IMG/VR virus record: IMGVR_UViG_3300011270_000016
Location: 1 to 28,851 of that record
Reading direction: 5' to 3' (one strand)
DNA: 28,851 bases
Source of the DNA: a virus
Shown: one piece after another, positions 805 to 28,851 of the stretch
Position numbering within the stretch: the stretch's first letter is position 1
Layout of the letters: the number at the start of each line of letters is the position of its first letter
Program-made: the position numbers and the translations under genes
Notes under the pieces: generated by a model
Databases searched by the model: none
Told to the model about the DNA's origin: nothing
The model's input: only the letters and a program-made list of their open reading frames with translations

Positions 805-1107
805 CTATGCGCCACGGTTAAGCGCACCGGGCGGAAGCTTCCCATCCCCGGCCAACTTCGCCAGCAGCGCCTCGCAGATGGCATCGAAATGCGCCTCTTG
901 AGCCCGCGCCCAGAATTCCACTGCCGTCGAGTCCGTATATGTGACGACATGCTTCCACCCGGAGTCCTTGTGCTCCAGGACGACTGAAAGGACCGGGCGT
1001 TCGGGATCCAAAGTCAGCGATACCGAGTGCAGTGTGAGCTCCTGCACAGTCACAGGATTGGCCAGGTCCCCGATCGTTACCGGCTGCGCGAATTTGTAGT
1101 TCATCAT
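805..1107 (-). CDS. Hypothetical protein at the end of the tail module
   Basis: This 100-residue protein has no family I recognise. It is predicted to be soluble, with alternating strand-like segments in the first 60 residues and an Ala/Leu-rich helix near 75-90. Its start ATG overlaps the stop codon of the large tail-tip gene (ATGA, 4 bases), so it is translationally coupled to it. It is the last gene of the - strand operon and its stop lies 20 bp from the 21-bp repeat array. By position it could be a small tail-fibre accessory or chaperone, but nothing in the sequence shows this. Confidence 0.65.
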   Translation of the reverse strand: MMNYKFAQPVTIGDLANPVTVQELTLHSVSLTLDPERPVLSVVLEHKDSGWKHVVTYTDSTAVEFWARAQEAHFDAICEALLAKLAGDGKLPPGALNRGA

Positions 1108-3974
1108 CCGAGCTCCACGATTTGGAATCTGCGGGCCGTGCCAACAGCCTCAAAAAATTTCCCGCTCGTGCCCACTTTCCAGCGCACATCGTACGTGTGG
1201 CTCGCCGCAGAGGGGGAATCGATAAAAGTAATTCCGACGATCAGCTTATGGTTCGCGAGGGCACTGGACCCGGCCGTACCGGGATCGAATTCGTAGTCCG
1301 TCGAGAGCTGAGTGCCGTCTTTGAAGATCGCCACGTTGTTCACGGGGGAATCGATGCTCCACATAGAAGCGGTGAACACCAAAAGCACCTTATTTCCTTT
1401 GAACGTTATCGTCTGCGTCATCTCCGGAATGACGGCGTACGTCGTGCTCGTCGTCGTCGGGCCAGACGTCGTCCCCACCGCATCGTTCACATTTTTCAGC
1501 AGCAAGTTCCCACTGCTGTCGACCGCTGCATTCTTCTGCGTCGTGGAAGCCCAAGCTGCTCGCGTACCGTCCGGAACGTTGTCCAACGATTTGTTCAGGT
1601 GGATCGCTTCGCTGAAATCGATCAACGGCTTGCCCGAGCTCAACCGCGACGCGAGCGGCCGGCCGTAGGTCGATTCAGCCAGGTCGTCGACGACCCCGGC
1701 GCCAACCTGAACCCACGCCGACCCCGTATCCCTGTACCACTTCCCATTCACCCCTTCGTTGGTCGAATGGAAGAGCCGTCCGGCAGTTCCTGCCGCCGGC
1801 CGGTTGGCGATGAGGTCCTCGAGCACGCGGAAGTATGAGCCGCCGTCCGGGATGTTGCCGAGGTGCTTGTTCGTGTACGACCGCGTGAAGTCCAAGCCCC
1901 CCGCGACGATGATGTTCGAGGAGTCGATGGCAGTGAAGCCGCGGTCCCCGCCGGTCTTCTGATTCGCTGTGGCCGCGCGCCGGTCGCTCGTCGCATCATC
2001 CGGCACGTTGCCGAGGTGCTTGTTGAGGTGGATCGCTTCGCTGAAATCGATCAGCGGCTTCCCGGAGCTGATTCGCGTCGATAGCGGCCGCGCATACGTC
2101 GTGCCGTCCGCCACGTCATCGAGATTCTTGGGGAACAGAGCCACATTGAATCGATCAAAATAGGCTGTCGTGGAAACCGTCATGCTGGCGACCGCGCTCT
2201 CGACGCGTCCAAAAAATGCGCTGGCGGGAGCTGTCCCTACAACCCGCGATTCAGCGTAGCTGGAAGATGAGATGTCGTTCCCATTCGTCACGCTCAGTTC
2301 CGTACTGCCATCGGAGGCGATCCAGGAGATCCGAACGTGGCAGCTCCCATCGCCCCCCGTTCTTTTTATCATTGCGGTCGCTAGAAGAACGTCGCCAGTC
2401 TGAATCGCGATCAAGATCGAATTCCGAAAAGCTGCGCCGCTCGATCCCAAGAATTTCGCTACCCACCCGCCGGAGTAGGCATTCGCGGCGTCATTTACGA
2501 TCGAGAAGCCGGCCTCCTTCGTCCAGTCCCGATCCCCGGCTTCCAGATCGGGATTGGCTATCATTGCCGATGAGGTCGAAAGCGGCAGCCCGGTTCCTGG
2601 CGTCGGCGCCTGCAGCGCCTGCTGCGTCGGCGCCGCATCTGGAAACGCGTTCGGCATATATTCCAGCCCGCGCAGACCGCGCGTGCCATCCGGATTCTCG
2701 TCGCATTCGAGCACCTCGAACAATTTCCCGCCATATTCTTCGCTGATCGATGGGTCGATGGTCACCACGTCGCCGGGCTCGACGGCCAGCGAATCCTCGT
2801 ATCCGATCCACTCGGCCGAGAACGGCGCATTGTAGACGCTGTTCGCGTCGACGTCGTCGCCCAGCTGCCGCACCAGCATCGCATCCAGGATCCGCCACAC
2901 CCGCTCCGGCGTGTTCACGCCCAGATCGAGCGCAAGCTCGGTGATCTTCGGGATCACGCTCAAGCCCGCGCCGCGCGCCCCCGCGATGCGCTGATGCGCC
3001 TCGTGGTTCACCTGCGGATCGGAAGCAATCGCGAATCGCGTCGCGTCGTCGCTGCTTCCCGAAGCCAGGCTCAGATCCCGGAAAGTTGGCGTCAGCCGGT
3101 TCGTCGCCGCGCGCAGGTTTCTCTTGTAGGCTTTGAACGACTTCGCCTCGACGTTGTCCGATGTGAAGGTGAACACAGATGCCCGCGCTTGGTCCGCATA
3201 GAGCGTAAATTTCCCGTTCCGTTCGAGAAGATAGCTGCGGCACATCAGCAGCATTTGCTCCAGCGCTTTGCCGGCCGTATCCCCGCTGTTCAGGAACACC
3301 AGGCCGCCGTCGCTGAAGCGCTTCTGCCCGCCGGAGAGCACCGCGTCGTAATACGTCGCCGCCGCCGAAAACGATGCCCAATCGAACCGCGCCAGCTCCG
3401 CGCTCACCAGCGGCTGATTGATCTTCCCTTCGCGCAGCACGAACTTATTGATCAGGAAGTCGCAGATGATCCACGCCCAGTTCTGCGTCCAGGCGAACGA
3501 AGTCTGATTTCCGCTCGAATCGAACTGCCGCACCTGCATCGCCTGGTAGTCCGCGAGCACGGTCAAGTCGGCCGTCGGCGCGCCCGGATCCGGAGCCACT
3601 TTCAGCGCCAGCCAAGCGTACCGGCTGAACGTCACTGGATCGAGGCCCCCTGGAACCAGCGTGAAGAACTGGTCGACATGCTGATCCCCTCCCGTCGAGT
3701 TTGCCGTCATCCCGTTGCCGATTTCGCCGTCATCGCCCGGATGGAAATGCACCGTCGTGCTCGAAGGCAGCGTGATCGCCTTGTTGTTGATCCACAGCCG
3801 CAGCAGCGAATCCCACCGGCCTTTCCCCAGGATGTAGAAGGCGACGCGCGTCTTATCCGTCAGCTCCTGCTGCAGGATCTTGTTCCCCGCTCCGCGCACC
3901 AACCCGTAGGCGAGCGTGTCCGGCAGGTCCAGGAAGGACGTCGAAAGATCGAATTGTGCCGCTTGCACCGCCAT
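1104..3974 (-). CDS. Tail-tip / host-specificity protein, lambda J-like position
   Basis: This is a large (956-residue) tail-tip protein that would form the central tip or fibre and contact the host. The N-terminal ~480 residues are globular, with a run near 390-460 (EPGDVVTIDPSISEEYGGK and neighbours) typical of the J/gp27-like baseplate fold. The C-terminal half is repetitive: a ~20-residue block ending in IDFSEAIHLNK occurs at about residues 634-655 and 778-800, with related NKHLGN-P-D blocks between. I place the start at 3974 rather than the upstream in-frame ATG at 4025. GGAG lies 4 nt before it, the preceding gene ends at 3976, and the 4025 ATG has no ribosome binding site. It follows a gpL-like gene, as in lambda. 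Confidence 0.85.
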   Translation of the reverse strand: MAVQAAQFDLSTSFLDLPDTLAYGLVRGAGNKILQQELTDKTRVAFYILGKGRWDSLLRLWINNKAITLPSSTTVHFHPGDDGEIGNGMTANSTGGDQHVDQFFTLVPGGLDPVTFSRYAWLALKVAPDPGAPTADLTVLADYQAMQVRQFDSSGNQTSFAWTQNWAWIICDFLINKFVLREGKINQPLVSAELARFDWASFSAAATYYDAVLSGGQKRFSDGGLVFLNSGDTAGKALEQMLLMCRSYLLERNGKFTLYADQARASVFTFTSDNVEAKSFKAYKRNLRAATNRLTPTFRDLSLASGSSDDATRFAIASDPQVNHEAHQRIAGARGAGLSVIPKITELALDLGVNTPERVWRILDAMLVRQLGDDVDANSVYNAPFSAEWIGYEDSLAVEPGDVVTIDPSISEEYGGKLFEVLECDENPDGTRGLRGLEYMPNAFPDAAPTQQALQAPTPGTGLPLSTSSAMIANPDLEAGDRDWTKEAGFSIVNDAANAYSGGWVAKFLGSSGAAFRNSILIAIQTGDVLLATAMIKRTGGDGSCHVRISWIASDGSTELSVTNGNDISSSSYAESRVVGTAPASAFFGRVESAVASMTVSTTAYFDRFNVALFPKNLDDVADGTTYARPLSTRISSGKPLIDFSEAIHLNKHLGNVPDDATSDRRAATANQKTGGDRGFTAIDSSNIIVAGGLDFTRSYTNKHLGNIPDGGSYFRVLEDLIANRPAAGTAGRLFHSTNEGVNGKWYRDTGSAWVQVGAGVVDDLAESTYGRPLASRLSSGKPLIDFSEAIHLNKSLDNVPDGTRAAWASTTQKNAAVDSSGNLLLKNVNDAVGTTSGPTTTSTTYAVIPEMTQTITFKGNKVLLVFTASMWSIDSPVNNVAIFKDGTQLSTDYEFDPGTAGSSALANHKLIVGITFIDSPSAASHTYDVRWKVGTSGKFFEAVGTARRFQIVELG

Positions 3975-3975
3975 T

Positions 3976-5154
3976 TCACTCCACAGCCCGCCGCCCTCTT
4001 CCTCCGGCGCCGGGCCCATCCCCATTGTCGCCGTCGCCGCGGCTGCCTCCCGTGCCCACGCCGGTCGGCCCGCTGATCGCCGTGATCTGCGGCTGCAGAA
4101 AAATAATTCCCGGGAAGCGCTCCGTCACGCCGCGCGTCACGCAGGAGCCGCGGTCTTTCGGACACGCACGGTAGACCACGACGAACACACTGGTTCCATC
4201 CGGAGTCGTCGTCCACGCCGGCGTGATCGTGAAGGTCGTCGCCGTATTGCTGGCAATCGCGCGGTTCTGCCCCGCGCCGGTCCCGGAGATGATGTACACC
4301 GCGCCGTCCGTGTCGCCATTCACCGTGCGCGCCAGGCCGCTGTTCCCGATCGTCGTCGAGGAAAAGATGTTCGCCGTCGTCGCGCCCACCTTCATCGCCC
4401 CTGCTCCGGTCGCGATGAATTTGCTGGTCCCATCGGGCGTCGTGCCCCAGTTCGCCTTCATCGTGAAAGTGGTCGCGGTATGCGATGCGATGTAGCCTTC
4501 CTGGCCGCTGCCTGTGCCCGCCAGGATCATCACCAGCTCGTTGCTGAAGAGGTTCGGCGTCAGCGTCAGCCCGCTCGCGCCAATCGTGCTCGCGCTGAAC
4601 GTCGTCGCCGTCGTCAGCGGCACAAAGAGGATCCCCCGCCGGTAGCCGCACTGCGCGGAGAAGAACCGCCAGTGGCATGCGCGCGTCTGCCGCTGGTCGA
4701 AGACCATCAGCTCGTTCGGCTGGAAGAGCTGCAGCATGCGCATCGAGATCTCTTCCGCCTCGACGCTCTGCTCGGTGATGAAGCCGTGGAACTCGAAGGG
4801 CGCCGCATCCAGCGGCACAAACCACGGCCGGTAGATCACGTACGCGCCCTCGAACTCTCCCGCCTTGAAGAGCGCCGCGACTTCGCGGTCGATGGTGTTG
4901 CCGCTCAAGTTCTGGATTTTGAAGTCGCCGCCATCGGCCGCCAGCGAGCGCGTCATTTTAACTGTCGGCGGCTGCGTCACCCAGGGTTTGTAGAGCTGCT
5001 GCGCGCCCGTCAGCCGCGAAAGGAATTGTCCCTCGAAGTCCGCCCAGAAATAGTTCGTGCCATCGCCGCGCTGCACGTCGAAGAGATGCACGCGATGCAT
5101 GGCGCGCCCTTGCTTCGCCAGCTCCGTCGCCATCCCTGCCGGCAAGGTCCTCAC
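3976..5154 (-). CDS. Minor tail-tip protein with gpL-type iron-sulphur cysteines (BR0599/DUF2163-like)
   Basis: This 392-residue protein has an N-terminal domain like phage BR0599/DUF2163 proteins and four cysteines with the lambda gpL layout: C160-x8-C169 and C331-x6-C338. In gpL these ligate a [4Fe-4S] cluster. In gpL the two pairs are about 22 residues apart; here 161 residues separate them. The insert is made of two tandem ~75-residue units (about 180-255 and 256-330), each with a GTGxGQ...IAS-TATTFT...TTPDGTS pattern. The C-terminal ~30 residues are Gly/Asp/Arg-rich. The start is GTG at 5154, with GGAG 7 nt upstream. It ends just before the tail-tip gene and follows the M-like gene, matching the lambda M-L-J order. 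Confidence 0.85.
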   Translation of the reverse strand: MRTLPAGMATELAKQGRAMHRVHLFDVQRGDGTNYFWADFEGQFLSRLTGAQQLYKPWVTQPPTVKMTRSLAADGGDFKIQNLSGNTIDREVAALFKAGEFEGAYVIYRPWFVPLDAAPFEFHGFITEQSVEAEEISMRMLQLFQPNELMVFDQRQTRACHWRFFSAQCGYRRGILFVPLTTATTFSASTIGASGLTLTPNLFSNELVMILAGTGSGQEGYIASHTATTFTMKANWGTTPDGTSKFIATGAGAMKVGATTANIFSSTTIGNSGLARTVNGDTDGAVYIISGTGAGQNRAIASNTATTFTITPAWTTTPDGTSVFVVVYRACPKDRGSCVTRGVTERFPGIIFLQPQITAISGPTGVGTGGSRGDGDNGDGPGAGGRGRRAVE

Positions 5155-5197: not shown

Positions 5198-6025
5198 TCA
5201 CTGCATCACTTCCAACGCGTCGATATAAATCTGGACGCTAGTCGAAGACGCGTTCTTCGTTCCTGTGACGCGGACCTTCACGCGATAGAAATCGAGCGCC
5301 AGGTTCTGAATCGTAAGCAGGACAGAGCTGTTCTGAGTGGGAGACGTGTGGTACTGATCCACGTTCGCCGGTCCCGAGACGACTGAGCCGTCTCGAACTC
5401 GCGTGACGGTGACCTCCGCGATCCCTAGATTGAAGTCCGTGGGCATCCAGATGCGGCACCCATATCCGAGGTAGAGCCACTCCGCGGTCTCATTGGTCGT
5501 GCTCGATAGATAGGCGCCGCCGGGAAGCGGATGCAGGTAGGACTTGCTCGGCCCATCGAAGCTCCAGTTCGCCGGCGTGAGCAGCTTCACGAGGTCCGCG
5601 CCGAAGCCATCGCGCTCTTCTAGGAAAATGGCGTCGCGTGACCAATTCGAGGGGTACGCGAAGATCGCCAGGCCCGGCAGCTCGATGAACCGCCCGTGAA
5701 TGTTGTAGCGCTGGTTCCCGGCCGGGCTGTAGCTGAGCGGCCCTTCGAAGCGCCCGCTGAAATAGCGCGCGCGCTCCCAGTCGGCGAAGCTGAAAAAATC
5801 GTTTTCGTACTGCTGCGCCCACTGCTGCAGCGCGTGCTTCGTCGCCAGGTCGCGATTGTTCCACGCGAGGTCATAGACGCGCCCGCGCCCCATCTGCCGC
5901 CGCGCATACGCCTTCCCGGACATCGCCTGGAACTGCGAGCGCATCTCCGGCAGCCCTTCGGTGTAGCCCCAGTCCGGATTGAAGAGGCTCGTCTGCGCTG
6001 GATTCAGGATGTTCTGCTCGGACAT
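5198..6025 (-). CDS. Minor tail protein in the lambda M position
   Basis: This 275-residue protein lies directly after the tape measure and before the gpL-like gene, the place of gpM/distal-tail proteins in lambda-like tails. The first ~110 residues contain a basic patch (YARRQMGRGRVYDLAWNN) and an aromatic run (FFSFADWERARYF) typical of distal tail proteins that take up tape-measure ends. The C-terminal ~130 residues look all-beta, with a final strand-rich segment, possibly a carbohydrate-binding or jelly-roll module. The upstream ribosome site is weak. Function is inferred mostly from position. Confidence 0.7.
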   Translation of the reverse strand: MSEQNILNPAQTSLFNPDWGYTEGLPEMRSQFQAMSGKAYARRQMGRGRVYDLAWNNRDLATKHALQQWAQQYENDFFSFADWERARYFSGRFEGPLSYSPAGNQRYNIHGRFIELPGLAIFAYPSNWSRDAIFLEERDGFGADLVKLLTPANWSFDGPSKSYLHPLPGGAYLSSTTNETAEWLYLGYGCRIWMPTDFNLGIAEVTVTRVRDGSVVSGPANVDQYHTSPTQNSSVLLTIQNLALDFYRVKVRVTGTKNASSTSVQIYIDALEVMQ

Positions 6026-8587: not shown

Positions 8588-9001
8588 TCAGCTTCCCCTT
8601 TGCGCCGCCGCCGCGCGCTGGCAATCGTTACAGGTCCTGTCCCACTCGTTTTGCAGCGGCTTGCCGCATCCGCTGCACGGCGGATGCATCCGCTGGAATT
8701 TAGCCCGCGCCTGGCGGAGGATCGAAAGCGCCATCACTTCGTCGTGGTCAAGCCGCGCCGCGTCGAACGTCAGCCCTGCTTCGAGCGGCTCGGCGATTTC
8801 TTCCGCCACGTATTCGAGCCACAGGTAATAGCCCGGCGAAAGCGTCCGCTTCGGCTCCGCGGCCGACAGGACGCTCTCGGCGTTCTCGCTGCGCTCCGCC
8901 AGCGCTTCGTTCTTCTCGCGCTGCGGCGCGTCGAATGCCTCTTCCATCAGCTCGAATGCCGCCGTGCGCAATCCTTCCGCGTCTTGTGCCACTGCGATCA
9001 T
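8588..9001 (-). CDS. Zinc-ribbon protein preceding the tape measure
   Basis: This 137-residue protein has an acidic helical N-terminal part and a C-terminal zinc ribbon: C109-x2-C112 and C124-x2-C127. I start it at the ATG at 9001 rather than 9172. The extension would translate the GGAATTAACACAGAGG-type repeat and an Arg-rich antiphase of the previous gene, neither of which looks like protein. It sits between the 279-residue gene and the tape measure, where tail assembly chaperones (lambda G/T) are normally found, so a role in tail assembly is likely. No programmed frameshift joining it to the upstream gene is apparent. Confidence 0.7.
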   Translation of the reverse strand: MIAVAQDAEGLRTAAFELMEEAFDAPQREKNEALAERSENAESVLSAAEPKRTLSPGYYLWLEYVAEEIAEPLEAGLTFDAARLDHDEVMALSILRQARAKFQRMHPPCSGCGKPLQNEWDRTCNDCQRAAAAQRGS

Positions 9002-9062
9002 CAGCTTCTTCTCTGTGTCCTCTGTGTCCTCTGCGTCCTCTGTGTTAATTCCTGGGGCTCGT
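9002..9062 (-). repeat. GGAATTAACACAGAGG-type 9-bp repeat array
   Basis: On the - strand the spacer reads GGAATTAACACAGAGGACGC followed by further CAGAGGACA-type 9-bp units and a final GAGAAG. The array proper occupies about 9011-9052. This is one of five such arrays in the window, all in the same orientation as transcription. Confidence 0.85.
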
Positions 9063-12715: not shown

Positions 12716-12830
12716 GTAGCGGCGGCCTTTAGGCCGCCATCTTTCCTGCTCTTGTAGCGGCCGGGCTTTAGCCCGGCATCTGTTTTCTCCGTGCCCTCCG
12801 CGCCCTCTGTGGTCTCTGCGTTAAATTCTT
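12716..12830 (-). repeat. Triple repeat cluster between connector and completion genes
   Basis: Three different repeats are packed into one intergenic spacer. A hairpin GGCGGCCT-TT-AGGCCGCC lies at 12721-12738, a hairpin GCCGGGCT-TT-AGCCCGGC at 12760-12777, and a CACAGAGG-type 9-bp array at about 12787-12826. Each hairpin is preceded by GTAGC and followed by ATC. None is followed by a T-run on the - strand. Confidence 0.9.
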
Positions 12831-14252: not shown

Positions 14253-16949
14253 CTACGGCACCACTTCCTTGAACACCCCGCGGAAATCGATCGGCTTTCC
14301 GCCGAACACGAACTTCACCTTGTACTGCAGCTGGTCGTTCGTGAACTGCGTCCCCTGCGTCGGCAGGTTCGCCAGGAAGATTTGCGGCGTCTCGTAGCCG
14401 TCCAGGAAGCCGATCTCGAGGAACGGCGCGTTCCCCTGCATCGTTCCGCCGTACCAGTCGTTGACGTCCGTCAGCAGCGGGTTCACGATGATGTTCTCTT
14501 CGTTCACCCCGAACTTCTGGTACCAATTGTTCGTCGCCAGCATGTTGCGGTTGATCTGCATCGCCGCCGGCCGCAGGTCGATTGGGATCATGATCCAGTC
14601 GAGCGTCAGCCCAAGCCGGTTCGTCGAATCCTTCTCCGACTGCTTCGCCAGCGCGATCGCGCGGGTATCCAGCTCCGCCGAAGAGAGCGCCGTCACCCCC
14701 GTGTTCGTGTGCGTCGCGTGGAACCATGCCAGCCCGTCCGGATCGTAGTTCGGCGGCGTGATGAAGAAGTTGCTGATGAACGTCGCCAGCGTGTGCCGTG
14801 CCGCGCGCGCCATGCGGTTCGGGAACTGCGCGATCTTCTGCAGATCGTCGTTGCGGATGGTCTCTTCCGAGATGGTCAGCAATCCGCCCTTCTTCAGGAT
14901 CGAATAGGTGATTTTTTCGTCGGTGGGCTTCGCCAGCTCCGTATAGACTCCCGCTTCCGCCACCGTCGGCAGGTCGCTCAGGTAGCCCAGCCGCACGCGG
15001 TCCTGCGGCTTGTAGTCTCCCAGCCGCGTCGTGGTGTACAGCTTTTCGAGGTTCGGCACGATCTGGAACTCGATGTAGTCCTGGATCAGCTTTTTCGTCA
15101 GCGACGAAAGCAGGATGTTCGGGAAGTCCGTCGTGGCGATCGCTTCCGACACGCGGAAGAAGCCGCCCTGGCTGAAGGTCATTTCGCGGTCCCCGGTGCA
15201 GTAGCTGTACGCTTCGCGCAGCCCGCGGAACGCCCGCACTCCCTTGTCCTTCAGCGCTTCCTTCACCCCCATCATCGCGTCCATCGCCAGCTGCAGCTTG
15301 TCCTGGCTGTTGCGGCCGACTTCGATCGAGCCGGTCTCGCGCCCGATGCTCGCGAACGCCGCGTACGATTCGCGCACCTTCGCGATGAAGCCGTCGACGG
15401 CCTTGTCGTCCGCCACGTTGCCGTTGAAGTGTTCCCTCACGATGGACTGCGCCGGCATCGGCAGCTTCGATTCCGTCAGCTTCCGTTCCAGCGTCGCCGC
15501 GAAGGTGATTTTCTTCGCTTCGCCCAGCGCCTGCTGCGCCCGCAGCATCACGTCATTGTTTTGCGCCGCCAGCGCGGATCTCGCCGCCTCGGACAGCATG
15601 TCGGCCACGGCTCTGCCCGCCGCCGCGTCCGTCACCACCGCCGATGGAAGCTTCTCCGTCACCGCTTCGCTCACCCTCGCAAAGAATTCGAATTGCTTGT
15701 CGTCCGGACAGCTTTCGAACTCCTTCGCAAGCACCGAGGCGCGGTCGGCATCGATTCTCCGGAGCGCCTCGAGCACTTTTAGAATTGAATCACGCATGCT
15801 CGTTCCTCCTTGATTTCGGCCAGCGCCTTGCGGGCTGACGCCATTCCCCGTCGCTGCGTTTCTGGTCGCAACGGGTGAAATTCTTTTCACTGCTTTTTTC
15901 TGCAGCGCGGAAATCTCCGCCAGCGTGTCGCGCGATGCCGCCACCTGCAGGAACTTTCCGCCTGCTCCCGGCTCCGCGCATAGATCGAGCCCCACGAACT
16001 TCTGCAGCGCCGTGGCCACCAGCGCGGGCTTCCCTTCCACCTTCGCGCCTTTGAATCCGAAGTATCCGAAAATCGAAACGCTGAAGAGGTCCAGCTTGCC
16101 CGCCTCGCGCGCCGCCATCAGCTTCGCACGGATGTCGGTTTCGCTTCTCAGCAGGTTCACCGTCGCCAGGGCCGCCGCTCCCGCCATGCGCCCGTTCGAA
16201 AGCCACCCGGCCGTCAGCTCCGGTGCGTTCGCGCCGTCGCCCGTTTCCGGATGCCGCCTGCGGAAGCGCGCGCCGCTCGCCGCCTGCGCCACCTGCGCCA
16301 CCACTTCCGGCGGGAAATAGTGCGCCGCCATCACCTGGCCGCTCGCGTCTTCCACCGATCCGTGCGCCCAGCCCGATTCCATCACCTGCACTGGCCAGAC
16401 CCAGCCGTCCTGCGTCGACGCCTCCGTGGCCAGGAACTTCGCATGCTCCGCCACCGGCACATAGGCCGTCTCCACCTGCTGCGGCTCGCCGAATTTGATT
16501 TCGTCGCCGTCATCCGTGTAGCCGATCTGGTAAAGCTCGCCATCCGGCCCGCGCGCGATCACATAATCCGGAAACGTCTCGACCAAACAGAACCGCCGGT
16601 AGCCGCTCGTGTCCAGCCCGAAATCTTCGAGCAGCGCCTGGTCCAGCTCCTGCATCTGCTCTTCGTACGATTCGTCCGCCTCCGCCTCCGAAGTTTTCAT
16701 ACCGTGCTCGCTCGCGAACCCGCTCGCATCGATCCCGTATTTCTTCGCCGCCGCCAGCAGCTTCCGCGCCACTTTCGCTTTCGCTTCCGCCGGCAGCTGC
16801 GTCTGGTTGAAACGCGCCAGCGCGTCGCGAACATGCGCTTCATCCGGAATCGGCAGATGCCAGGTGCTGATGTCTTCGGGATCGCCGACGTACGCGAACG
16901 CTGAGGCGGGGTATTCCTTCCCCCCCACGCTCTTTGTTTTGCCTGCCAC
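14253..16949 (-). CDS. Prohead protease-major capsid protein fusion
   Basis: One open frame of 898 residues joins parts normally encoded separately. Residues ~16-75 (STWHLPIPDEAHVRDALARF and following) match DUF6582, often fused to phage proteases. Residues ~185-340 look like a prohead protease: HP at 233-234, FSVSIFG near 289-295, and a final LDLCAEPGAGGKFLQVAAS. Residues ~385-640 are helical, scaffold-like. The rest has HK97-fold capsid features (PNILLSSLTKKLIQDYIEF, FRVSEAIATTDFP nearby). The start is GTG with AGGAGG. An internal ATG at 15797 (residue 385) has a perfect AAGGAGG (15805-15811) 7 nt upstream, so a separate 514-residue capsid product is likely. Confidence 0.9.
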   Translation of the reverse strand: MAGKTKSVGGKEYPASAFAYVGDPEDISTWHLPIPDEAHVRDALARFNQTQLPAEAKAKVARKLLAAAKKYGIDASGFASEHGMKTSEAEADESYEEQMQELDQALLEDFGLDTSGYRRFCLVETFPDYVIARGPDGELYQIGYTDDGDEIKFGEPQQVETAYVPVAEHAKFLATEASTQDGWVWPVQVMESGWAHGSVEDASGQVMAAHYFPPEVVAQVAQAASGARFRRRHPETGDGANAPELTAGWLSNGRMAGAAALATVNLLRSETDIRAKLMAAREAGKLDLFSVSIFGYFGFKGAKVEGKPALVATALQKFVGLDLCAEPGAGGKFLQVAASRDTLAEISALQKKAVKRISPVATRNAATGNGVSPQGAGRNQGGTSMRDSILKVLEALRRIDADRASVLAKEFESCPDDKQFEFFARVSEAVTEKLPSAVVTDAAAGRAVADMLSEAARSALAAQNNDVMLRAQQALGEAKKITFAATLERKLTESKLPMPAQSIVREHFNGNVADDKAVDGFIAKVRESYAAFASIGRETGSIEVGRNSQDKLQLAMDAMMGVKEALKDKGVRAFRGLREAYSYCTGDREMTFSQGGFFRVSEAIATTDFPNILLSSLTKKLIQDYIEFQIVPNLEKLYTTTRLGDYKPQDRVRLGYLSDLPTVAEAGVYTELAKPTDEKITYSILKKGGLLTISEETIRNDDLQKIAQFPNRMARAARHTLATFISNFFITPPNYDPDGLAWFHATHTNTGVTALSSAELDTRAIALAKQSEKDSTNRLGLTLDWIMIPIDLRPAAMQINRNMLATNNWYQKFGVNEENIIVNPLLTDVNDWYGGTMQGNAPFLEIGFLDGYETPQIFLANLPTQGTQFTNDQLQYKVKFVFGGKPIDFRGVFKEVVP
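15795..15811 (-). promoter_or_regulatory. Internal ribosome binding site and start within the fusion gene
   Basis: AAGGAGG at 15805-15811 precedes an in-frame ATG (15795-15797) by 7 nt, optimal spacing. It lies at the protease-capsid boundary, exactly where two separate genes would normally meet. It probably gives independent, abundant synthesis of the capsid part. Confidence 0.8.
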
Positions 16950-24385: not shown

Positions 24386-25581
24386 CGCTCGCTTGATTCA
24401 CGTCCTCGCTTTTTGTTGCATTCGCCGAGGCCGCATTCCCGGTCCTCGCAGATCTCCTCGCACGCGCAGGTTCTGGTCCGCTCTGCGTCCTCTGCGCTCT
24501 CCGTGCCCTCTGCGCTAATTCCCGGTTTTTCCACCGTAGCTGCTTTTACGCCGCCATCCGGCTCTTCGTCTGGCTTTTGTAGCGGCGGCTTTATGCCGCC
24601 ATCCGGCTCTTCGTCTGGCTTTTGTAGCGGCGGCCTTTTAAGACCGCCATCTTTCTTCGTCCTGTAGCGGCCGGGCTTTAGCCCGTCATCCGTCACTCCC
24701 GACGCAGGTGCCTTCTCGCACCGCACGCCCAGAAGTCTGGTCAGCCCGATTCTGTAGAAGGCAAGCCCGAGCGCCGTGGGCTCCGCGTGCCATCCCTTTC
24801 TTGTCCACTGCCAGCAATCCCATCGCGCGGCCCAGTGCGGGGCATCCGCCGATGGTGGCACAGGCTTCAGCCTGTGCAGGCCCGCCTCGAGGTAAACCGC
24901 GTACCAGTCCTGCGCGACCTTCTGCTGCGCGTCTTTCAGCTCCATCTTTCCCGCGCATACTTGCTTGTGCAGCCAGTTCTCGACCGCGTCTTTTTCGTGC
25001 GCGCCCGGATGCGCATAGTAGGGCTGCGGCATCAGGTTCTCTTTCACGTCCGCGCCGGCCAGCTCCAGGGAGTCGACGTGATCGATTTCATACATCGGCA
25101 GCTTCGTCTTGTGCCCTTTATTTTTCTTCGCCCATTCCTCGTCCGTGTCGCAGACCACGCTTCCGGTGCAGAAGACCGCGCGGTTGAACCCGTGCTTGTC
25201 CACGCCGTATTCGGCGAAGACTTCTTCCTTCAGCGCTTCCGTCGTGTTGCGGAACTGATCCGTCCATCCGGCCGGCTGATCGCAAATCTGCGATTTGTCC
25301 GTCGTCCGCACCGCCCCGGGAGTCCCTTTGAGGTCGTTCAGTGCCACGCCATCGTGGAAGCGATACCGCGCCGCCGCCTGCGCGAACGCCGCCTGCCCGC
25401 AGGCCATGCACACAAATGTTAGGAGAAGCGCTGGAAAAAGACTGCCCGAGGTCCTCCCAAGTCTCTTCACCGCTATCCGCAGTCGTTCGTGATCCCGGCC
25501 GGGCGGGCCGTAAATCGTCCCGGACCGGGGCGCCAGAAACGCCCATTTTTTCTCGCGGGATGCAGTCTCTGCCTTCCCCAT
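24382..25581 (-). CDS. Signal-bearing HNH nuclease with a repeat-derived C-terminus
   Basis: The 399-residue frame has an AGGAGG site 9 nt before its ATG. A ~45-residue basic N-terminal region precedes a hydrophobic segment (48-66) with a signal-peptidase-like AFA-QA site, so the protein is exported or anchored. The HNH core reads YEIDHVDSLEL...ENLMPQP (164-187; H168, N182), then a helical domain ending in AQDWYAVY (223-230). Beyond this the family usually ends. Here the frame continues ~170 residues through a hairpin repeat (LEAGLHRLKPVPP), several PPLQKPD-type repeat translations and a CACAGAGG array, to a Cys-rich end. The downstream lipoprotein start overlaps the stop. Confidence 0.75.
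   Translation of the reverse strand: MGKAETASREKKWAFLAPRSGTIYGPPGRDHERLRIAVKRLGRTSGSLFPALLLTFVCMACGQAAFAQAAARYRFHDGVALNDLKGTPGAVRTTDKSQICDQPAGWTDQFRNTTEALKEEVFAEYGVDKHGFNRAVFCTGSVVCDTDEEWAKKNKGHKTKLPMYEIDHVDSLELAGADVKENLMPQPYYAHPGAHEKDAVENWLHKQVCAGKMELKDAQQKVAQDWYAVYLEAGLHRLKPVPPSADAPHWAARWDCWQWTRKGWHAEPTALGLAFYRIGLTRLLGVRCEKAPASGVTDDGLKPGRYRTKKDGGLKRPPLQKPDEEPDGGIKPPLQKPDEEPDGGVKAATVEKPGISAEGTESAEDAERTRTCACEEICEDRECGLGECNKKRGRESSER
24481..24523 (-). repeat. CACAGAGG-type 9-bp array inside the nuclease frame
   Basis: On the - strand the region reads AATTAGCGCAGAGG followed by CACGGAG and GCAGAG units. It is translated in the nuclease frame as SAEGTESAEDAE. Confidence 0.85.
24550..24688 (-). 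repeat. Tandem 45-bp repeats and hairpins inside the nuclease frame
   Basis: GCCGCCATCCGGCTCTTCGT and the 20 bases after it occur twice with a 45-bp period, starting at 24550 and 24595. The repeats contain hairpins GGCGGC-TTTAT-GCCGCC (24584-24600) and GGCGGCCTT-TT-AAGACCGCC (24629-24648, one mismatch). An imperfect GCCGGGCT-TT-AGCCCGTC copy follows at 24670-24687. The whole block is open in the nuclease frame and gives repeated LQKPDEEPDGG peptides. Confidence 0.9.
24858..24877 (-). repeat. Hairpin repeat GCACAGGCT-TC-AGCCTGTGC within a coding region
   Basis: An exact copy of the family found between genes at 23574 lies here inside the nuclease frame, where it encodes part of GLHRLKPVPP. 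It falls close to where the HNH domain family normally ends. Confidence 0.95.
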
Positions 25582-26663: not shown

Positions 26664-27286
26664 CGCGCCTCTACCTGCTCGGGATGCGCTCTCTTCTCTG
26701 TGTCCTCTGCGCTCTCTGTGTTCTCTGTGTTAATTCCCGCTGTTTCTTTCGCTTTTTCCGCCCGTCTCCGCATCCCTTTCAAAATCCAAATCACACGGTT
26801 CGCCTCCGCCAGCGTCCGCACTCTTCCGCTGCGCACCGGAGATTTGCTCGACCGCAGAAACGCATCCAGCCGTTCGCGCGTCCATCCAAGCGCGGTGCAG
26901 AGGTTCGCCAGCAGTTGCAGCGTCCCCGCATCCGCCATGCGCACCGCGCCGCCCGCATTCGCGCCGGCAAGGCGCGACCTGCCAGAAGTCCCGTACGCCT
27001 GCGCCGTCTCGCGCCCCGGTCGCGCCGGCAAGGCGCGGCGTGAAGAAGATCTCGTCAGCAGCTCCGCCGGCAGATGCTTCTGGATCGCGTCAATCGCCGT
27101 CTTCGCTTCCGCCGCGCTCAGATCCTTGAACGATCCAATCTGCCTCCCGATCGTTTCCCCCACCCAGAGAAGCCTCGCGGCACGGGGCTCGGGGTTTGTA
27201 CTTGCAAACCCCGATTTAACAAAGATTCCCCACAGCGTCTGCAGCCGCTTCATCTGCTTCCCCGAAATTTTCGCAGCGTCAGCCAT
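26660..27286 (-). CDS. Possible GemA (Mu gp16)-like protein carrying repeat insertions
   Basis: The 208-residue protein begins with a helical KISGKQMKRLQTLWGIFVKS and has a C-terminal ANRVIWILKGMRRR helix with a preceding LANLCTALGWTRERLDAFL, a layout like the GemA/DUF1018 family of Mu-like phages. Three hairpins interrupt it: TCGGGGTTTG-TACTTG-CAAACCCCGA (27189-27214) and two identical CGCGCC-GGCAA-GGCGCG copies (26960-26976, 27021-27037). The last ~25 residues (INTENTESAEDTEKR) are a translated CACAGAGG array. The stop overlaps the HTH start, so this read-through tail is presumably translated. Confidence 0.55.
   Translation of the reverse strand: MADAAKISGKQMKRLQTLWGIFVKSGFASTNPEPRAARLLWVGETIGRQIGSFKDLSAAEAKTAIDAIQKHLPAELLTRSSSRRALPARPGRETAQAYGTSGRSRLAGANAGGAVRMADAGTLQLLANLCTALGWTRERLDAFLRSSKSPVRSGRVRTLAEANRVIWILKGMRRRAEKAKETAGINTENTESAEDTEKRAHPEQVEAR
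26694..26736 (-). repeat. CACAGAGG-type 9-bp array at the 3' end of the GemA-like gene
   Basis: On the - strand it reads GGGAATTAACACAGAG followed by AACACAGAG, AGCGCAGAG and GACACAGAG units. It is translated in the GemA-like frame. Confidence 0.9.
26960..27037 (-). repeat. Two identical GGCAA-loop hairpins inside a gene
   Basis: CGCGCC-GGCAA-GGCGCG occurs at 26960-26976 and 27021-27037, 61 bp apart, within the GemA-like frame. The pentaloop matches hairpins at 9917 and (as GGTAA) 13614. Confidence 0.95.
27189..27214 (-). repeat. 10-bp-stem hairpin inside a gene
   Basis: TCGGGGTTTG and CAAACCCCGA pair perfectly around a TACTTG loop. It lies in the GemA-like frame, encoding part of KSGFASTNPEPRA. 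Confidence 0.95.
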
Positions 27287-28197: not shown

Positions 28198-28271
28198 CTA
28201 GACCTTCGTCCTCTTTCCCTTCATCCTCTTCTCTGTGTCCTCCGTGTTCCCCGCGGCCTCTGTGTTGATTC
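28198..28271 (-). repeat. CACAGAGG-type array in the spacer
   Basis: On the - strand the spacer reads GGAATCAACACAGAGG followed by divergent CCGCGG, GAACACGGAGG and ACACAGAG units at about 28229-28270. It is the fifth array and has the same orientation as the others. Confidence 0.8.
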
Positions 28272-28851
28272 CTACTCCCTCACAATGATCGTGAACCCCG
28301 ACGCCGCCATCGCCGAAAACGTCGTCGCTCCCTTCGCCGCCAGCCCGCTCAGCGTCGTCGCCTGCCCCGCCGCCATTCCTTGGATCGCCGTGTCCGTCTT
28401 CGCCGCCAGCGTGTCCAGTGTGACCGCCTGGCTCGCTTCGAGCGATTGCAGTACCGCGAAGCCGCGCTCGACTCCCACGAACGGCCCGGTGAGCAGCGTG
28501 ATGAACACTGGCTCGTTCAGCGCTTCGGGCCGCGACCAGAACCGATTCACCGCCGGCCGCGCTTGGGTCGCCGTCCATGCCGCGACCGAAGATGCTATGG
28601 CCGGCAACGATCTCTCCGGCCCTGCAGAGGCTGCGGGTTGCGCGAACTTCGGTGCCGCGGACGGCCGCGGCTCGGGCTGCGCCCAGCTCGAAACGAATAC
28701 AATCGCCGGCGCAGCGATGTTGAATTTATCCGGCGCGGCAAACGATCCGCGGCCGTAGCTCTGCGGCTGCGCCGCCGGCCCGATGGTCGGCGACCAATGG
28801 CTCAGCGTCACCGCCGCGGGCGGCAGCGTCTTCGCGGGCGCGCTGAAAACA
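28272..28851 (-). CDS. Hypothetical protein, 5' end outside the window
   Basis: The frame is open to the last base. Codons upstream of the apparent GTG at 28811 continue as VFSAPAKTLPPAAVTLSHW, so the start probably lies beyond 28851. At least 190 residues are visible: a low-complexity Pro/Ala/Ser section, then a GPFVGVERGFAVLQSLEA segment, then a run of Ala/Thr-rich repeats (TLAAKTDTAIQGMAAGQATT, SGLAAKGATTFSAMAASG) that would form a helix or coiled coil. I recognise no family. Confidence 0.5.
   Translation of the reverse strand, partial: VFSAPAKTLPPAAVTLSHWSPTIGPAAQPQSYGRGSFAAPDKFNIAAPAIVFVSSWAQPEPRPSAAPKFAQPAASAGPERSLPAIASSVAAWTATQARPAVNRFWSRPEALNEPVFITLLTGPFVGVERGFAVLQSLEASQAVTLDTLAAKTDTAIQGMAAGQATTLSGLAAKGATTFSAMAASGFTIIVRE

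Follow-up and report, generated by a model that had tools for sequence, protein, structure and literature searches.

A tail-tip hub protein of the Fe-S type with a tandemly doubled module between its conserved cysteine pairs

The window, i.e., the whole stretch of 28,851 nucleotides (28.85 kb) of an IMG/VR virus record that was analysed, encodes a tail-tip hub protein in the gene order tape-measure, Dit-like, hub and gpJ-like (Table 1), in which the Dit-like and gpJ-like calls are based on position and weak matches. The Dit-like gene matched no family in Pfam or PHROG, and tblastn linked the gpJ-like gene with a tail fibre protein of a Roseobacter phage (E 8e-6). Because close homologues are 73-82% identical over about 361 residues and because the open reading frame is flanked by the Dit-like and gpJ-like genes, the hub ORF was taken as a real gene. 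The record also contains terminase, portal, MuF-like, capsid and tail tube genes. Elsewhere in the window, an 898-aa protein (14253-16949, minus strand) presents a DUF6582-like N-terminus fused to a capsid part of the Phage_capsid_4/head-maturation-protease type. Besides, dispersed 53-nt repeats (TCTGTGTCCTCTGTG...TTAATTCC) were found at 9001-9062, 12768-12829, 24471-24523, 26677-26738 and 28221-28273, and a second repeat set (GTAGCGGCCGGGCTTTAGCCCGGCATC) lies close to gene ends. The dispersed repeats of the window look like host-genome rather than phage repeats.

Table 1. Features of the hub gene and of its neighbours (positions are those of the window).
Feature	Coordinates	Strand	Details and basis
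Tail-tip hub protein of the Fe-S type, two tandem modules	3976..5154	minus	392 aa, GTG start; ORF, phrog_778 and Foldseek
Attachment (HDI-like) domain, residues 1-159	4678..5154	minus	21-row alignment and model
Cysteine pair one, C160-x8-C169	4648..4677	minus	Kept in 11/11 two-module and 13/13 zero-module hubs
Module 1, residues 175-250	4405..4632	minus	Repeat alignment, module tree
Module 2, residues 251-330	4165..4404	minus	Repeat alignment, module tree
Cysteine pair two, C331-x6-C338	4141..4164	minus	Cysteine columns of the hub alignment
Dit-like distal tail gene, upstream of the hub	5198..6025	minus	Position and sequence; homologues at this location in L002-L004
gpJ-like tail hub/fibre gene, downstream of the hub	1104..3974	minus	Weak phrog_1727 match, E 0.004

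The hub protein contains exactly four cysteines (160, 169, 331 and 338), with a spacing of x8, x161 and x6, against x8, x22 and x6 in lambda gpL, whose C173, C182, C205 and C212 were modelled around an Fe-S cluster (PMC10721106). An iron-sulfur cluster coordinated by four conserved cysteines was also described in the hubs of RcGTA (PMC7296036) and R4C (PMC10276861). The C-x8-C and C-x6-C motifs were kept in all 24 hubs compared (11 with two modules, including that of the window, and 13 with none). Among the two-module hubs, the four cysteine columns were invariant (11/11) and any other cysteine column was occupied in at most 3 of the 11. Judging from this conservation, a [4Fe-4S] cluster is very likely retained in the hub.

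The 161 residues between the two cysteine pairs consist of two units of about 76-80 residues each, with 56% identity across 70 aligned positions and the same six predicted strands in both. Their local alignment scored 181, whereas none of 1000 shuffles exceeded 60. In the module tree, all copies of module 1 were grouped against those of module 2 (support 98/93), and therefore one duplication would have preceded the divergence of these phages. Every two-module record searched had exactly two modules, with no third copy within the window. From alignment and tree, the paired modules are thus read as a true tandem duplication, arising from one old event.

Residues 16-340 of the hub protein matched phrog_778 (tail assembly protein; E 4.4e-9), the same PHROG as matched by JBD30 gp50 (1e-104) and by the R4C hub (2e-51). 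The latter two proteins also matched TIGR02218 (phage/gene transfer agent baseplate hub protein). The hub protein itself did not match TIGR02218, reached 13.3 bits with PF09356, under the cut-off of 22.9, and (as P0002) did not match PF05100 (Phage_tail_L), to which lambda gpL itself scored 338 bits. Sequence-only PDB searches with the hub gave no relevant match. An AF2 model was then built from 21 alignment rows (mean pLDDT 68, against 37 with only 7 close rows), the zero-module rows being truncated past the second cysteine because full-length MAFFT misplaced their third and fourth cysteines. The pLDDT was mostly 60-88 over residues 21-140 and fell under 50 near each of the four cysteines (143-172 and 331-340), where the convergence of the pairs is not readable from the model. 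When this model was compared with the PDB using Foldseek, the top six matches were all hub or tail-tip chains: RcGTA 6tba (E 1.7e-8), JBD30 8rk3, phage Chi 8vjh, R4C 8gtc, Sf11 tail 9occ and lambda gpL 8iyk (8iyk_L, E 8e-5). TM-scores by query length were low, near 0.25, in line with the uncertain domain orientation of the model. These profile and fold matches place the protein in the gpL/GTA-gp13 baseplate-hub family, as a divergent member.

Comparison with known hubs places the doubled insert within an established plan. The RcGTA hub is organized as attachment (1-142), ion-binding (143-167 and 250-263), oligosaccharide-binding (168-249) and clip (264-296) domains (PMC7296036). Like the window hub, RcGTA g13, the R4C hub and JBD30 gp50 (TIGR02218, PF09931 and PF09356, phrog_778) share an attachment domain, the C-x8-C and C-x6-C pairs split by a beta-domain (the first pair being x9 rather than x8 in R4C) and the tail-gene order, with the hub after the distal tail gene; identity to the window hub in structural alignments is about 13-15%. 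They carry one inserted domain, the gap being 76-89 residues in the 15 one-domain phage hubs examined (JBD30 and R4C included), whereas window-type hubs carry two, with gaps of 161-166. Lambda gpL (PF05100) has the attachment domain and the iron-binding domain, with four cysteines spaced x8 and x6, but its gap of 22 residues holds no inserted domain. The zero-module acidobacterial-type hubs (L015, L021, L018, L127 and others) have an attachment domain up to 47% identical, the same x8 and x6, and a gap of only 7-8 residues without any module. The hubs of the giant Caulobacter phage CcrKarma and Brevundimonas phage Domovoi (L029:583-2208 and L030:571-2244) belong to the same family with the same cysteine spacing and also have an insert much larger than one domain; their gaps of 339 and 356 residues, however, hold one RcGTA-type domain and an extra insert of about 250 residues, with no tandem duplication. 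The original prediction of a gpL-type Fe-S hub protein, with lambda-like cysteine spacing and two related units of about 75 residues filling the widened gap, was borne out, but its view of any module in this loop as unusual found no support. Hubs of the RcGTA, R4C and JBD30 type regularly have a single homologous domain of about 80 residues at precisely this position; the novelty lies in the tandem doubling of this plan, not in the kind of architecture.

The module is also found outside this family of hub proteins. The search of the module against phage proteins proposed originally gave at least 456 confirmed matches in viral contigs, together with a repeat protein of Pseudanabaena phage Pam2 (UQS94946), which has several copies of the same module of about 70 residues but no hub domain; with module 2 alone, tblastn found no match in cultured phages. 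Among the matches listed, the carriers included gpJ-like proteins of about 1300 aa, a Dit-like protein and proteins of about 480 aa weakly matching kelch, in addition to the cyanophage repeat protein. In the gpJ-like ORFs (L051:385-4281 and similar ones in L052 to L061), a single copy lies near residues 870-945, at a conserved position. An 809-aa ORF (L071:2017-4443), which we read as Dit-like from its sequence, has two module copies and neither C-x8-C nor C-x6-C. By its distribution, the module is a mobile domain, carried by various virion proteins lacking the cysteines, gpJ-like and Dit-like ones among them; the suggestion that it grows from the Fe-S site is therefore not upheld.

The protein is probably the HDI/iron-binding hub of a siphophage tail tip of the lambda/RcGTA type, in which a loop pinned by the cluster carries a doubled beta-domain on the outside and would provide extra glycan contacts. 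The gene, its family, the conservation of the cysteines, the duplication with its relative age and the homology of the module to the known hub domain have a direct basis here. Three copies of the hub and the gpJ-like protein would form a ring below Dit, and the two cysteine pairs of each hub would fold together around the [4Fe-4S] cluster. The cluster would pin the base of the loop, the chain leaving and re-entering the site via the two tandem beta-domains of about 80 residues, and the paired modules would project outward, on the outside of the tip. The inserted domain was named oligosaccharide-binding in RcGTA (PMC7296036) and R4C (PMC10276861); in RcGTA, this name is based on resemblance to one domain of LKA1 gp49 rather than on a binding assay with the hub. 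In the proposal of the RcGTA authors, the tail has 21 oligosaccharide-binding sites, three of them in the hubs, whose dynamic binding aids passage through the capsule. By analogy, the doubled domain would most likely add weak contacts with host-surface glycans, raising their number per tip from three to about six. The surface-binding role suggested at the outset is plausible.

Alternatively, with the same hub and cluster, the paired modules could be structural, packing on the gpJ-like protein or on neighbouring hubs and lengthening or bracing the tip, with no sugar binding. Conservation across the 11 two-module hubs was 69% for module 1, 57% for the attachment domain and 54% for module 2; the higher value for module 1 than for the attachment domain is more in line with a structural role than with a receptor contact that evolves fast, and the RcGTA authors likened their single hub domain to a domain of the T4 hub. 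However, the occurrence of the module in many unrelated virion proteins is as expected for a portable surface domain, and the zero-module relatives build a hub without it. We regard a purely structural role as rather unlikely.

A comparable, low likelihood is given to the modules having been taken from another mobile copy and not being the RcGTA-type hub domain, their likeness in position being convergent. Indeed, they match the Pam2 repeats (E 2.5e-16) far better than the hub domain (hhalign 91%, E 1.1e-6, score 35.6), and the zero-module relatives are close. Yet the hhalign score exceeded those of 100 column-permuted controls (maximum 16.5) and of the reversed control (9.3). Furthermore, L071, which has two modules but not the Fe-S cysteine pattern, matches phrog_778 at positions 157-222 (E 5e-8), i.e., the inserted-domain part, this being its only PHROG match and falling at its modules. 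The hub profile thus recognises free copies of the module, and therefore the module and the hub domain belong to one superfamily; at profile level, the module is homologous to the oligosaccharide-binding domain of RcGTA-type hubs. That the cysteines bind another metal, such as zinc, or merely brace the fold is improbable, given the Fe-S density at the same four cysteines in the RcGTA, R4C and lambda structures (PMC7296036, PMC10276861, PMC10721106), even though only a putative metal is given at C147, C156, C238 and C245 of JBD30 gp50 (PMC11445458) and cluster-less hubs are known (LSH1 paper).

Relatives of the doubled hub were located via neighbouring genes, then by alignments. In direct searches, the whole hub protein had no match in viral and genome contigs and, in cultured phages, only the module match in Pam2. 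Ten environmental homologues have two modules (L002, L003, L004, L005, L010, L014, L019, L020, L049 and L065) and 13 hubs have none (L007, L015, L016, L018, L021 to L026, L045, L127 and L128). In the tree, the zero-module hubs formed one clade (100/100) beside the two-module hubs, except for L128, whose position is unsure (distant, long branch). Because no one-module form was found among the 24 related hubs, loss of the pair, gain of the pair and doubling of an inherited single domain all fit. Of the zero-module hubs, L018 lies in an Acidobacteriaceae MAG, while L127 and L128 come from two further genomes of the acidobacterial set that was sampled, and on account of these relatives the host of the window phage is likely acidobacterial; a two-module hub was found in none of the 396 acidobacterial genomes. 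Two of the environmental hubs (L014:3001-4167 and L019:3001-4164) have identical modules and differ over their first 75 or so residues, which suggests recombination inside the hub gene. The zero-module hub ORF of L018 (2986-4029; also in L126) continues into a Hint/intein-looking segment (CTKKGT...EHPVYTDRGKTW) that matched no Pfam family.

Hubs with zero, one or two domains in one loop, and with nearly always identical cysteine spacing, constitute a natural series, from which one can ask whether the cluster is a staple that allows the loop to accept domains. The widespread module also provides a searchable marker of adhesion-type domains in uncultured soil phages. More tentatively, and with somewhat less than even confidence, a siphophage lineage may have fixed a tandem carbohydrate-binding pair between the Fe-S ligand pairs, switching between zero and two as a unit, the same module decorating several other tail proteins across phages. 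If true, the fixed module pair would double the surface contacts of the tail tip.
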